Shown here: one piece after another, positions 17,956-36,456 of the stretch
How positions within the stretch are numbered: the stretch's first letter is position 1
Layout: each line of letters begins with the position of its first letter
Assembly: GCA_014584695.1 (NCBI GenBank)
Contig: JACTMI010000007.1
Coordinates: 1 to 64,000 of the forward strand
Direction: 5' to 3'
Length of the DNA: 64,000 nucleotides
DNA from: Acidobacteriota bacterium
Lineage (GTDB): Bacteria > Acidobacteriota > Thermoanaerobaculia > Multivoradales > JAGPDF01
Position numbers and translations under genes: made by a program
Notes under the pieces: generated by a model
The model's input: only the letters and a program-made list of their open reading frames with translations
Database searches by the model: none
What the model was told of the DNA's origin: nothing

Positions 17956-18784
17956 GAAGCTATCCCTAAACCGGCATAGCGATTGCTCGGATGCGGCATC
18001 ATGCTCAAGATGTCACGCGAAGTACTCGACTGGATCTGTCAGCAGATTCCCGGTCTGTCGAAAAGCCCGCTCAGCGGGAGACCCAGCATCGACAAGCGCA
18101 AGGTCGTCGCCGGCATCTTCTGAATGCTCGACAACGGTGCGAAATGGAAGGACCTTCCACGACGTTCTGGCAGCAGGAGCGCCGTGCATCGCTGGGTCAA
18201 GCGATGGATGGAACAGGGCGTCTTCGAGGAGATCCTCCGCGCCGCGGGAAGTCTCGTCGAAGAGCGCGATGGCTACCGGTTCTACGAGTGCTTCATCGAC
18301 ACCACCTTCTCCAAGGCGAAAGGCGGAGGCGATGGCATCGGACTCACGCGAGTCGGCAAAGGCGTGAAGATCATGGTCTTGCTCGATGCTCACGGCCTCC
18401 CGGCGGCGGTCAACACGGCTTTCGCGAATCGCGCCGAAAGTCATCTCGCACAGCAACTCTTCGACTTCATGATTCCGGAATCGTTGCCCGACCGTGTCGT
18501 CGGCGACAATGCCTACAATAGCGATGCGCTCGACGAGATCCTCTCCGAGCGCGGCATCGAACTCATCGCGCCGCATCGATCGAATCGACTCCCCGAGAAC
18601 AAGACTCAGGATGGTCGATCGCTGCGTCGCTGCAAGCGACGATAGACCGTCGAGCGCTCGATCGCCTGGCTGCAGAACTACCGAAGGCTCCGCATTCGAT
18701 GGGAACGATCGGCTGCACTCTTTCAAACCTTTCTCCACTTCAGCTGCACGCTCCTGCTTCTCAGACAGGTTCTGGGATAGCTTC
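17956..18784 (+). mobile_element. decayed IS5-family insertion sequence
   Basis: The element is about 829 bases long. Imperfect terminal inverted repeats read GAAGCTATCCCTAAACC at the left end (17956-17972), and the complement of the right end (18768-18784) reads GAAGCTATCCCAGAACC, 15 of 17 matching. The size and the transposase inside fit the short IS5 groups (IS427/IS1031-like). The left end begins just after a CTG and the right end is followed by TAGACG; I cannot define a convincing target duplication. The transposase is broken, so the copy is not autonomous. Confidence 0.85.
18001..18780 (+). pseudogene. IS5-family transposase with two in-frame stops
   Basis: One frame runs from ATG 18001 to a final stop in the right inverted repeat. 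It is interrupted by TGA at 18121-18123, where relatives have a tryptophan or tyrosine before LDNGAKWKDLP, and by TAG at 18643-18645. DDE residues are visible in CFIDTTFSKAKGGGDG and VGDNAYNSDALDE. The final glutamate lies in TVERSIAWLQNYRRL, after the second stop, so neither fragment can be catalytic. There is no frameshift, which suggests fairly recent inactivation by point mutation. Confidence 0.88.
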
Positions 18785-32989: not shown

Positions 32990-33671
32990 CGCGCAGCCTC
33001 CGCGCGAAGTGTAGCGCCGAATCCTCGAATGACAGGGAGAGGCAAGGCTGGGTCGATCCGACGAAGCAACGGGGAAGCTCCTCCCCATTCTCCGACCGGG
33101 CGAGATGGCACGGCTCGTTGCCCGGGCGAGGGCTGCTCCGCTGCAATCGGAGCGCCTGCCGGGCTAGCTTCGCTCCGCCTGACCCAGGGCAACTGAATCC
33201 ACGAGGTCGAAGCCTCGGCCGTATGCGCGAATAGGGGATGGTTCCCAGACCGCGAACCAGGATCGGTGACGACACTCCGGGGTACTCAGTAGTGCTCGAG
33301 GGGCTCGGCGAGACGTTGGGCGCTCACGCGCGGGCACCTCCTAAAGCTCTCCTTTGTTCCTCGGGTGGGAAGCGCGATTCAACGAGACGAGTCGCTTCCA
33401 GCTTGAGGTTCCGGGCGCTCCAATCCCGATTGCTCTTGAAGCCTGGGCCTGCCGAGCGCCCGAATCTGTCGCCTGGTTCGTTCTCGGAGTAGCCGTTCAA
33501 CCGGCCGATCGCCCTTCGGGCGGCGAAGTCCAGCGAGGCATCGCTTCGGGTTGCTCCCTGGGGATCCGAAGCGCTGAGGGTCAGGGTCAGCCGGCAGCGG
33601 GGGGGCTGAAAGGGCAAGCAGGCCACAGCTTCGAGATACCGGACAGGCATCGGGATCGCAAAGGAGGCGGA
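32990..33671. other. 680-base intergenic region, no supported gene
   Basis: Between adenine deaminase and the exported HETLH protein I see no frame with coding-like third-position GC and no known family. It has lower GC and several short inverted repeats. A promoter for the 33672 operon is expected here, but no convincing -35/-10 pair is visible. A minus-strand ORF (33324-33680) has no recognisable motif. Confidence 0.5.
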
Positions 33672-34436
33672 ATGGAACATCGGAGTCGGAGGCTGCTGGC
33701 TTGCCTCATGGTTGCATGTGGCTTGGTCCTCTCGGTAAAGCCTGCGGTGGCATGGGGCTATGAAGCGTGCGGCATGGGCTGTATCTGCGTGAATTGGCGA
33801 CTCACGCCGGGCTGGGAGTACATCGAGGTGAGATGCTCCCTCGGCATAGGGACGTGGGTGCAGACGATTCCCCCACCGGGGACAACGCCGCCCGACGGAG
33901 TTGGAAGTTTCGGCGGAAACGGTACACCGCAGAGCATCCCAACTCCGCTTCCAGGAAATCCACTGACGCCGCAGCAGTTGCAGAAACTCGACCTCGCGAA
34001 GCCCAAGGCGACCTCAAAGCTCCTCGAGGTGAAGGAACCAGACACACCACCCGGTACGAGATTCGCCACGACTTGCTCTGCGCTCTTCGAGAACAATCCC
34101 ATGGGTCGAAAGGGGGCTGACCTGCTGGCTAATTATGTGATCTTCCGCGACGGAACGGGCGTCAAGGCACCGGGCACACAAACGGTAGTCTGCAACTCTG
34201 ACACGAAAGCGTGGACAACATGCTGTCTTCACAACCGAGTCGTATATCTTTGCAATAGCTTCGGAGCGACAACGAATATCGACGAACTCGCGTATTTCCT
34301 CATCCATGAGACGCTGCATGTTGCTGGGCAGAAGGAGGACTTGAACACAACTGTCGGCCCCGGGAACCCGCCATCCTCCGGACAGATCCAAGACGTCGTT
34401 CGGGCGGCTTGCGCGACTCCGACTAGAATCGAATAG
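33672..34436 (+). CDS. exported putative zinc metalloprotease (HExxH)
   Basis: The 254-residue product has a strong AAGGAGG and a signal peptide (LLACLMVACGLVLSVKPAVA). A proline- and glycine-rich low-complexity segment follows (about residues 65-100). Near the C-terminus, FLIHETLHVAG carries HETLH, the HExxH zincin signature. Several cysteines (ACGMGCIC, TTCC) suggest disulfides. No named family is recognised; the peptidase call rests on that motif. It is in an operon with the helical exported protein 12 bases downstream. Confidence 0.6.
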   Translation: MEHRSRRLLACLMVACGLVLSVKPAVAWGYEACGMGCICVNWRLTPGWEYIEVRCSLGIGTWVQTIPPPGTTPPDGVGSFGGNGTPQSIPTPLPGNPLTPQQLQKLDLAKPKATSKLLEVKEPDTPPGTRFATTCSALFENNPMGRKGADLLANYVIFRDGTGVKAPGTQTVVCNSDTKAWTTCCLHNRVVYLCNSFGATTNIDELAYFLIHETLHVAGQKEDLNTTVGPGNPPSSGQIQDVVRAACATPTRIE

Positions 34437-34448
34437 GAGACAACCTCG

Positions 34449-35231
34449 ATGAACGTAGAAAAGGCAGCCTTCTCTCGAATGACTCTCCTGATGGCGCTTC
34501 TGGTCAGCATTGGCGGGACTGCCCTCCTCGGAGCAGAACCGGCCTCGACAGGTAACGCGCCCGCGTGCGATGCCGTCGTGGCCCGAGCCGAAGCGCTCTT
34601 AAAGGGGACCGCGCGCGGACCCTCGAATGGGCACGAGCTTGCCGCCCTTGTCGAAAGGGCCCTGAGAGATTGCAACAATGGTTCAGTCGAGGCGAGAACT
34701 CGAGGTCGAGTGCTGTTGGCCGCCTCCATCGCTGGCAGCGACGAACGCGATTCTCTCTCCATGTTGCAGGAAGCCGATCAGGTCCTTCGAGAGGACGCTC
34801 CTCGGGCGAAGGAGCGTGTGATTGTCCTCGAGTATCTCGCTACCAACTGGTTGCGAGCAGGCGCCTTCGACCTGGCGACGACGGCAGCTGAAAAGAGCGC
34901 ACTACTACGACGGGATCTGTGGGGCTCGACAAGCCCAGAGGCCATTGACGGTAGGACGTTCTTGTCCTACTTCTTTATGTCGCAGTCGGAGTTCAGGGCC
35001 CCGGAAGAGAACCTCCAACGTGCACGCCGTGAGGCGCAGTCCGCCGTGGACGAGGGTGTAGCATTTCTCGGTTCGAACGCTAGAGCAACCATGCGGGCTC
35101 GCGTTGCACTTGCAAGCGCTCTGCGCGCCGAAGGCCAGAGAGCTCGGGCGAGTGAGATCATGGAGCAACTCGCCGACACCGACCTCGCGACGCTTTCGGA
35201 GGACCTCAGAGAGGTGCCTCCGGGGCCTTAG
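34449..35231 (+). CDS. exported helical-repeat protein, unknown function
   Basis: The 260-residue product has an N-terminal signal (MTLLMALLVSIGGTALLG) and then an almost wholly helical sequence. TPR-like helices are visible: VIVLEYLATNWLRAGAFDLA, and MRARVALASALRAEGQRARA. Codon use is less GC-biased than in most of the window, as in the preceding gene, so the pair may have been acquired together. It probably works with the HExxH protein. Confidence 0.6.
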   Translation: MNVEKAAFSRMTLLMALLVSIGGTALLGAEPASTGNAPACDAVVARAEALLKGTARGPSNGHELAALVERALRDCNNGSVEARTRGRVLLAASIAGSDERDSLSMLQEADQVLREDAPRAKERVIVLEYLATNWLRAGAFDLATTAAEKSALLRRDLWGSTSPEAIDGRTFLSYFFMSQSEFRAPEENLQRARREAQSAVDEGVAFLGSNARATMRARVALASALRAEGQRARASEIMEQLADTDLATLSEDLREVPPGP

Positions 35232-35520: not shown

Positions 35521-36354
35521 TCAAGACATCTCGAGGAACAAGATCAGGTGAGCCATTGCACGCCGCAAAGCTCGGCGTGCGCCTTCCGCAGAGCGACAAT
35601 GCAGCGTCGACAGCTCATCGTCGGACGCGGCGAAGAGCAACCGCCCCACGAGCAGCTCCTGCTCTTGCCTCGGGAGTGAGCACAAACCGCGCAGAATGCG
35701 TCGTCGACTCTCGGATTCCGCCGCGTTCACAAACTGCGATGGTTCCGACGAGGCTTCTTGGGCTGGCGTGAGCAACTGCGTCTCGCCGATCTGACTACGT
35801 CGAAGCTCGTCTCGGACTTGATTGCGGATGCAAGTGCAGAGAAAGCTCGCGAGCGCCGGCGGATTATCGAAGCTTGCATCCCCTCGGGCCAGCGCCTTGC
35901 AACAGGCGTCTTGAACAAGATCCTCTGGATCATAGCGCCGCCGGCTCGACGCGGGAGAAGTGCGCTTGGCGAATCTCTCGAGTTTAGGCAAGAGAGGCCC
36001 CAACCAGACCGCCACCTGGCCACTGCTCTCTTCGTACCGAACGTCAGCCGGAACGGCCTCACCAACCGATTCAGAAGAGCCCACGGATGGCGGAGGATCG
36101 AGCGGAACTTCCCGTGGCCCATTTCGGCGCCCAGCGTTTGACATTCGCTTCGTTACGAAGCGCACCCATTCCTCAGGCGCGACGGGTGGTTCACCGCTCC
36201 TTCTGAGCAAGGCGCGCACCGCTGCCTGCGCGAGATCCTCGGCGTCCGCGTGCGAGAATCCAAGCCGCTGCGCCACCGTGTGGGCGATTTGAAGAAGGCT
36301 CTGGATCGAGCCCGTTCGAGAAGGCCGCGGGCGACGGAGCAGTCCTGCTTCCAT
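35521..36354 (-). CDS. sigma-70-like factor with two region-2-like segments
   Basis: The 277-residue product starts at ATG 36354, 8 bases after GGAGG. Two segments resemble sigma region 2: residues about 15-75 (LGFSHADAEDLAQAAVRALL) and about 105-165 (RYDPEDLVQDACCKALAR with IRNQVRDELRR). A region-4-like helix-turn-helix follows (LPRQEQELLVGRLLFA). Normal ECF factors are about 180-200 residues with one region 2. No anti-sigma gene is adjacent. The 289 bases after it contain only a hairpin near 35367-35393. Confidence 0.7.
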   Translation of the reverse strand: MEAGLLRRPRPSRTGSIQSLLQIAHTVAQRLGFSHADAEDLAQAAVRALLRRSGEPPVAPEEWVRFVTKRMSNAGRRNGPREVPLDPPPSVGSSESVGEAVPADVRYEESSGQVAVWLGPLLPKLERFAKRTSPASSRRRYDPEDLVQDACCKALARGDASFDNPPALASFLCTCIRNQVRDELRRSQIGETQLLTPAQEASSEPSQFVNAAESESRRRILRGLCSLPRQEQELLVGRLLFAASDDELSTLHCRSAEGARRALRRAMAHLILFLEMS

Positions 36355-36456
36355 AGCGATGACCTCCAATTGATCCACCGGCCAGGGCCAAGGGGTCGTA
36401 GATTCCCTTTCCGGCCCGACATCCTAGCGGCCAAGAGCCCGCCGGCAGGCGCCGAC

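Follow-up and report, generated by a model that had tools for sequence, protein, structure and literature searches.

A putative chimeric ECF sigma factor with two sigma2 domains of different lineages in an Acidobacteriota genome

We found that a gene of an Acidobacteriota bacterium encodes a protein with a sigma2-sigma2-sigma4 layout, which among the genomes searched is a singleton variant of ECF sigma factors. Our data indicate that the gene is a fusion of two ECF paralogue lineages, in which a truncated sigma factor is joined to a complete one. We hypothesize, with a probability of about 0.45, that this natural fusion combines a working C-terminal sigma factor with an N-terminal sigma2 domain that would compete with it or capture a regulator.

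Gene and domain architecture

The gene lies within the 64,000-nucleotide stretch of DNA analyzed here (the window), at positions 35521-36354 of the minus strand, as determined from the open frame and its translation. It comprises 277 codons plus a stop and begins with an ATG at 36354, and the plus strand over 35521-36354 is closed, with no open frame. A preliminary description of this DNA had given the same coordinates, correctly but without the strand, and had placed two region-2 segments before one region 4 in a 277-residue protein, a layout that it considered different from that of a standard ECF factor. Both of these claims hold, since Pfam matches region 2 twice and the order of the three domains is supported by TIGR02937 and AlphaFold2. 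The features are as follows.

35521-36354, minus strand: chimeric sigma factor gene (open frame; two Sigma70_r2 matches; TIGR02937 sigma70-ECF, 58 bits)
36363-36367, minus strand: Shine-Dalgarno sequence GGAGG, 8 nt 5' of the ATG (conservation with L003, a sigma factor gene of the same genome)
36124-36318, minus strand: first sigma2 domain, L003 type, residues 13-77 (Pfam 21.1 bits alone; 56% identity to L003; AlphaFold2; tree support 100/99)
36040-36123, minus strand: linker, residues 78-105 (alignment with L003; pLDDT below 50 in most of the linker)
36001-36003, minus strand: possible internal start TTG at residue 118, with AGGTGG 8 nt upstream (a candidate from the sequence)
35776-36039, minus strand: second sigma2 domain, L004/L002 type, residues 106-193 (Pfam 39 bits; pLDDT mostly 80-97; tree support 95/95)
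35527-35736, minus strand: sigma4 domain, diverged, residues 207-276 (TIGR02937; AlphaFold2; family-profile score)

The domains of sigma factors are few and follow a set order; an ECF factor usually has a single sigma2 and a single sigma4. We found that Pfam Sigma70_r2 matches the full protein twice (57 bits over two stretches, the best at residues 122-188), and that none of the other open frames that account for the 34 region-2 matches in its genome has a second one. When each half was searched separately against region 2, a check that the preliminary description had proposed, the C half scored 39 bits (E 6.8e-10) and the N half 21.1 bits (E 2.8e-4), just below the Pfam cut-off of 24 bits. 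The same description had named a first segment that is not sigma-like as grounds for giving up its claim, and the profile searches did not give that result; the segment falls below the cut-off but is 56% identical to L003, and this identity is better evidence for its nature than the Pfam score. Furthermore, with the chimeric protein excluded from the C-half family, the first segment can be aligned in register to that family's region-2 block (hhalign E 4.7e-4). The polymerase-contact motif DxxDxxQ is kept by both sigma2 domains, as DAEDLAQ at residues 37-43 of the first and DPEDLVQ at residues 142-148 of the second, and both contain a 2.3/2.4-like helix, which in the first domain includes W63. 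The chimeric protein, a putative sigma factor, may bind core RNA polymerase and direct transcription.

A complete ECF-type unit of sigma2 and sigma4 spans residues 106-276. Although both Pfam region-4 models found no match in the chimeric protein, region 4 is present, because NCBIfam TIGR02937 (sigma70-ECF, 58 bits) covers residues 124-270; L002 and L004, two paralogues, likewise give weak matches to these models. Compared with ECF factors (group 4), as defined by TIGR02937 or by Sigma70_r2 with a sigma4, the C half has the same domain order and length with DxxDxxQ, its sigma2 is recognized by Pfam at 39 bits, and its sigma4 is joined to sigma2 by a short linker without sigma3 (TIGR02937, AlphaFold2). 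The chimeric protein differs from this group in that it contains two sigma2 domains rather than exactly one sigma2 and one sigma4, the additional 5' sigma2 being of another ECF lineage and recognized by its homology to L003, and in that its sigma4 is unusually diverged.

Structure prediction is consistent with this architecture. From the single sequence, AlphaFold2 folded the first segment into three helices within residues 17-77, mostly at pLDDT 65-85. When supplied with an alignment, which took in 43 relatives, it formed the first sigma2 from helices 13-30, 35-53, and 60-77, followed by sigma2 at 106-193 and sigma4 at 207-276, with most of the latter two domains above pLDDT 85 and the sigma4 helices at 91-98. 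The pTM of 0.41 means that the model does not fix how the domains are placed relative to one another. The top Foldseek matches of the alignment-based model were ECF sigma factors in polymerase complexes, and those of the single-sequence model were weak (E > 0.04).

Origin of the two halves

The two halves have different nearest relatives within the same genome. Residues 2-105 match L003 in register at 56% identity over 104 residues, while residues 91-271 and 118-270 match L002 and L004 at 40-41%. L003 has the usual sigma2-sigma4 layout (region 2 at 39.4 bits and region 4 in Pfam), and unlike the chimera, L003, L002, and L004 each have a single sigma2-sigma4 unit. Aligned locally, the two halves score 42 with each other; the N half scores 264 with L003, and the C half 233-252 with L004/L002. 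A tree of 76 region-2 domains, which is built on a short alignment and has bootstraps that are not fully settled, pairs the N domain with L003 (support 100/99) and puts the second sigma2 in a clade with L004, L002, and the family relatives L005, L019, L021, and L006 (support 95/95). Since the tree and the scores assign the two sigma2 domains to different ECF lineages, our data indicate a fusion rather than a duplication. Internal duplication of region 2 was rejected because the copies are not each other's nearest relatives, and the term "duplicated region 2" in the preliminary description therefore has to be abandoned for two barely similar domains. Similarity of the N half to L003 stops in the linker at approximately residue 105, just 5' of region 4 in L003, and this end of the linker, before the place where L003 region 4 would begin, is the fusion joint.

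The similarity to L003 extends to the start of the gene. Around the Shine-Dalgarno sequence, a stretch of 31 bases shares 84% identity with the 5' end of L003, whose own start codon is GTG. The weight given to this ribosome-binding site rests on the conservation with L003, because the GGAGG pattern by itself is not rare in the window (three found versus two expected). A promoter and terminator scan found neither. An assembly chimera is unlikely, since the halves are only 56% and approximately 40% identical to other places in the genome, not near-identical, and since GC3 is equally low in both halves (0.63 and 0.67).

Distribution

None of the 59 near genomes, 149 genomes of the class, and 396 genomes of the phylum searched contained a match across both halves, nor did a GTDB-wide scan with the C-half alignment reveal one; that scan returned 45 relatives, mostly from Acidobacteriota. 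An exact-pattern GTDB scan using the protein alone and a plasmid search also gave no match. A local region-2 profile detected a convincing second domain in none of the 45 C-half relatives. Weak second region-2 hits from a home-made profile in L012, L142, L122, L017, and L003 were taken as chance because Pfam gave one region 2 each in L012, L142, and L003. The double-sigma2 fusion is known from one genome, a draft assembly of 48 contigs, and no more than three other genomes, 90-93% complete, represent the genus. Our literature search returned no account of ECF factors with two sigma2 domains, a sigma2 extension, or a duplicated domain; the main ECF re-classification paper lay outside this search, and an earlier description there is possible.

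Proposed function and alternatives

We propose that the 5' part of an L003-like gene, comprising the ribosome-binding site, sigma2, and most of the linker, was cut before sigma4 and joined to a whole L004/L002-like gene. ECF sigma2-sigma4 linkers pass through the polymerase cleft and exit channel (PMC6372665), and the acidic sigma2.2 motif (DAED, DxxDxxQ) contacts beta' (PMC8999054, PMC13147305). The C-terminal sigma2-sigma4 pair would be the working sigma factor, because only the second sigma2 and the sigma4 share a linker of normal length that can thread the polymerase. The N-terminal sigma2 would either compete in cis for the beta' clamp site, since it retains the acidic clamp-contact motif (DAED, where the second sigma2 has DPED), or be bound by a regulator of L003-type sigma factors. 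The extra sigma2 would thereby set how readily the factor enters the holoenzyme. A further proposal, that the foreign sigma2 acts in cis as a built-in competitor for the clamp or selects promoters, uniting two ECF regulons in one protein, is unlikely in our estimate.

This layout would act like an ECF sigma factor with a regulatory extension, the extension itself being a sigma domain. N- or C-terminal regulatory extensions occur in at least 26 ECF groups and have been described as SnoaL-like, TPR, cysteine-rich, WD40, or anti-sigma domains (PMC8999054). The chimera resembles such factors in combining a two-domain sigma with an extra domain on the same chain and in having no adjacent anti-sigma gene (PMC8999054, PMC3426412), while differing from them in its extension, which is N-terminal and consists of a sigma2 rather than of a SnoaL, TPR, cysteine-rich, or anti-sigma domain. 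The extension may control the activity of the chimeric sigma factor. A natural sigma2-sigma2-sigma4 protein of mixed origin would mean that paralogous sigma factors do fuse at the level of domains, and it offers a ready test case for a sigma2 that regulates a sigma factor in cis; a single gene from a single draft genome carries limited weight.

The main rival, and a serious one, is that the fusion is inert or decaying, a lineage accident that brought no new regulation, with a drifting C half or an N domain carried along without harm; we regard this as somewhat unlikely. Its occurrence as a singleton and the silence of both Pfam region-4 models fit such a reading, as does the divergence of the C half. 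Our data indicate that the C-terminal half evolves fast and that its sigma4 is unusually diverged: in the region-2 tree the branch leading to the C half is long (1.49 versus a median of 0.26), this half scores 110 bits against its own family profile (near relatives 138-215), and region 4 scores 29.6 bits (near relatives 57.5-89.2). The helix-turn-helix of the C half carries a one-residue deletion in its turn, which L066 shares, and the low region-4 score could reflect loss of -35 recognition. Low GC3 also fits decay; a value of 0.65 is common to the sigma gene and the two genes beyond it, compared with 0.88-0.97 in most flanking genes, and it could reflect weak expression or relaxed selection. 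Against decay, the frame is open across 277 codons, the start and Shine-Dalgarno sequence are intact, both DxxDxxQ motifs and the invariant positions of the family are retained in the chimeric protein, and all three domains are folded by AlphaFold2. Furthermore, both halves look constrained, with a dN/dS of approximately 0.34 between the N half and L003 and of 0.39-0.46 between the C half and L004/L002; these values are rough since dS exceeds 1.

We consider it improbable that the locus makes a normal two-domain sigma factor from the TTG at 36003 in addition to a longer form with the extra sigma2. The AGGTGG lies 8 nt 5' of this in-frame TTG at the joint, and initiation there could yield a stand-alone C-terminal sigma factor of approximately 160 residues that keeps nearly all of region 2 plus region 4; Pfam still scores region 2 at 39 bits in 35521-36003. 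However, TTG is a weak start, a single short purine-rich match easily arises by chance, and the first helix of the second sigma2 starts earlier, at residue 106.

It is quite improbable that the N-terminal sigma2 is a decoy that soaks up a regulator of L003-type sigma factors and links two regulons as a sigma mimic. Its 56% identity to L003 would suffice to retain a partner surface, and sigma mimicry is known (PMC8999054). The chimera shares with PhyR-type mimicry (EcfG/NepR/PhyR) a sigma-like domain outside the working sigma factor; it differs in lacking a receiver domain and in that the mimic would be fused to the sigma factor, and PF22029 (PhyR_sigma2) has no match in the chimeric protein. 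A decoy is opposed by the genes nearby, as Pfam found no anti-sigma domain in the proteins encoded beside the chimeric gene, in agreement with the preliminary description, and the reading frames that surround L003 include no apparent anti-sigma gene. Least probable is that the N-terminal sigma2 reads the promoter together with the C-terminal sigma4 while the middle sigma2 is a spacer, or that both sigma2 domains serve two promoter classes: the polymerase motif and the 2.3/2.4-like helix kept in both domains would allow it, but a folded sigma2 of approximately 85 residues would then sit in the linker that threads the cleft and exit channel (PMC6372665).

Genomic neighborhood

Upstream of the chimeric gene, on the same strand, are a methyltransferase gene and a gene for an FG-GAP protein. 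Downstream and convergent are a gene for a secreted HExxH peptidase-like protein (33663-34436, plus strand) and one for a TPR protein with a signal peptide (34449-35231, plus strand), both without a clear Pfam family. The peptidase-TPR pair recurs in genomes G022 (L089), G005 (L090), and G037 (L096), and a partial peptidase gene lies beside a TPR gene on contig 32 of the same genome as the chimera (L097). A module of the sigma factor with the peptidase and TPR genes was considered and dropped, since the pair recurs elsewhere without a chimeric sigma factor. GC content between positions 33000 and 36500, the segment of the genes with GC3 of 0.65, is 0.56-0.68 in 500-base steps within a window of 72% GC, and this segment may have been acquired or may be under relaxed selection. 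In a synteny test for an island or empty site, the methyltransferase had no match in the seven nearest genomes. Beside L003 a small secreted protein (LSALAIL.WASGAAAQ) is encoded twice in tandem (L057, 6740-9366), and the 3' end of L003 continues into a simple repeat (KSEERRAKSKEQRAEQ).

We also considered activation by a Ser/Thr kinase of the ECF43-like type. In ECF43-like factors, which have a neighboring kinase gene, the DAED/DxxD motif is replaced by uncharged residues (PMC8999054, PMC13147305); this mode was rejected here because DAED and DPED are present instead, and a Hanks-kinase motif scan of the window gave no match. Among the 45 C-half relatives, only seven have a Hanks kinase within approximately 4 kb, located upstream on the opposite strand in six (L106, L108, L109, L115, L128, and L132) and downstream in L127. 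These locations suggest kinase-linked control in part of the C-half ECF family. Elsewhere in the window, a plus-strand frame at 18124-18645 that starts MLDNGAKWKDLPRR resembles part of an IS5-type transposase and has a GC3 of 0.73.
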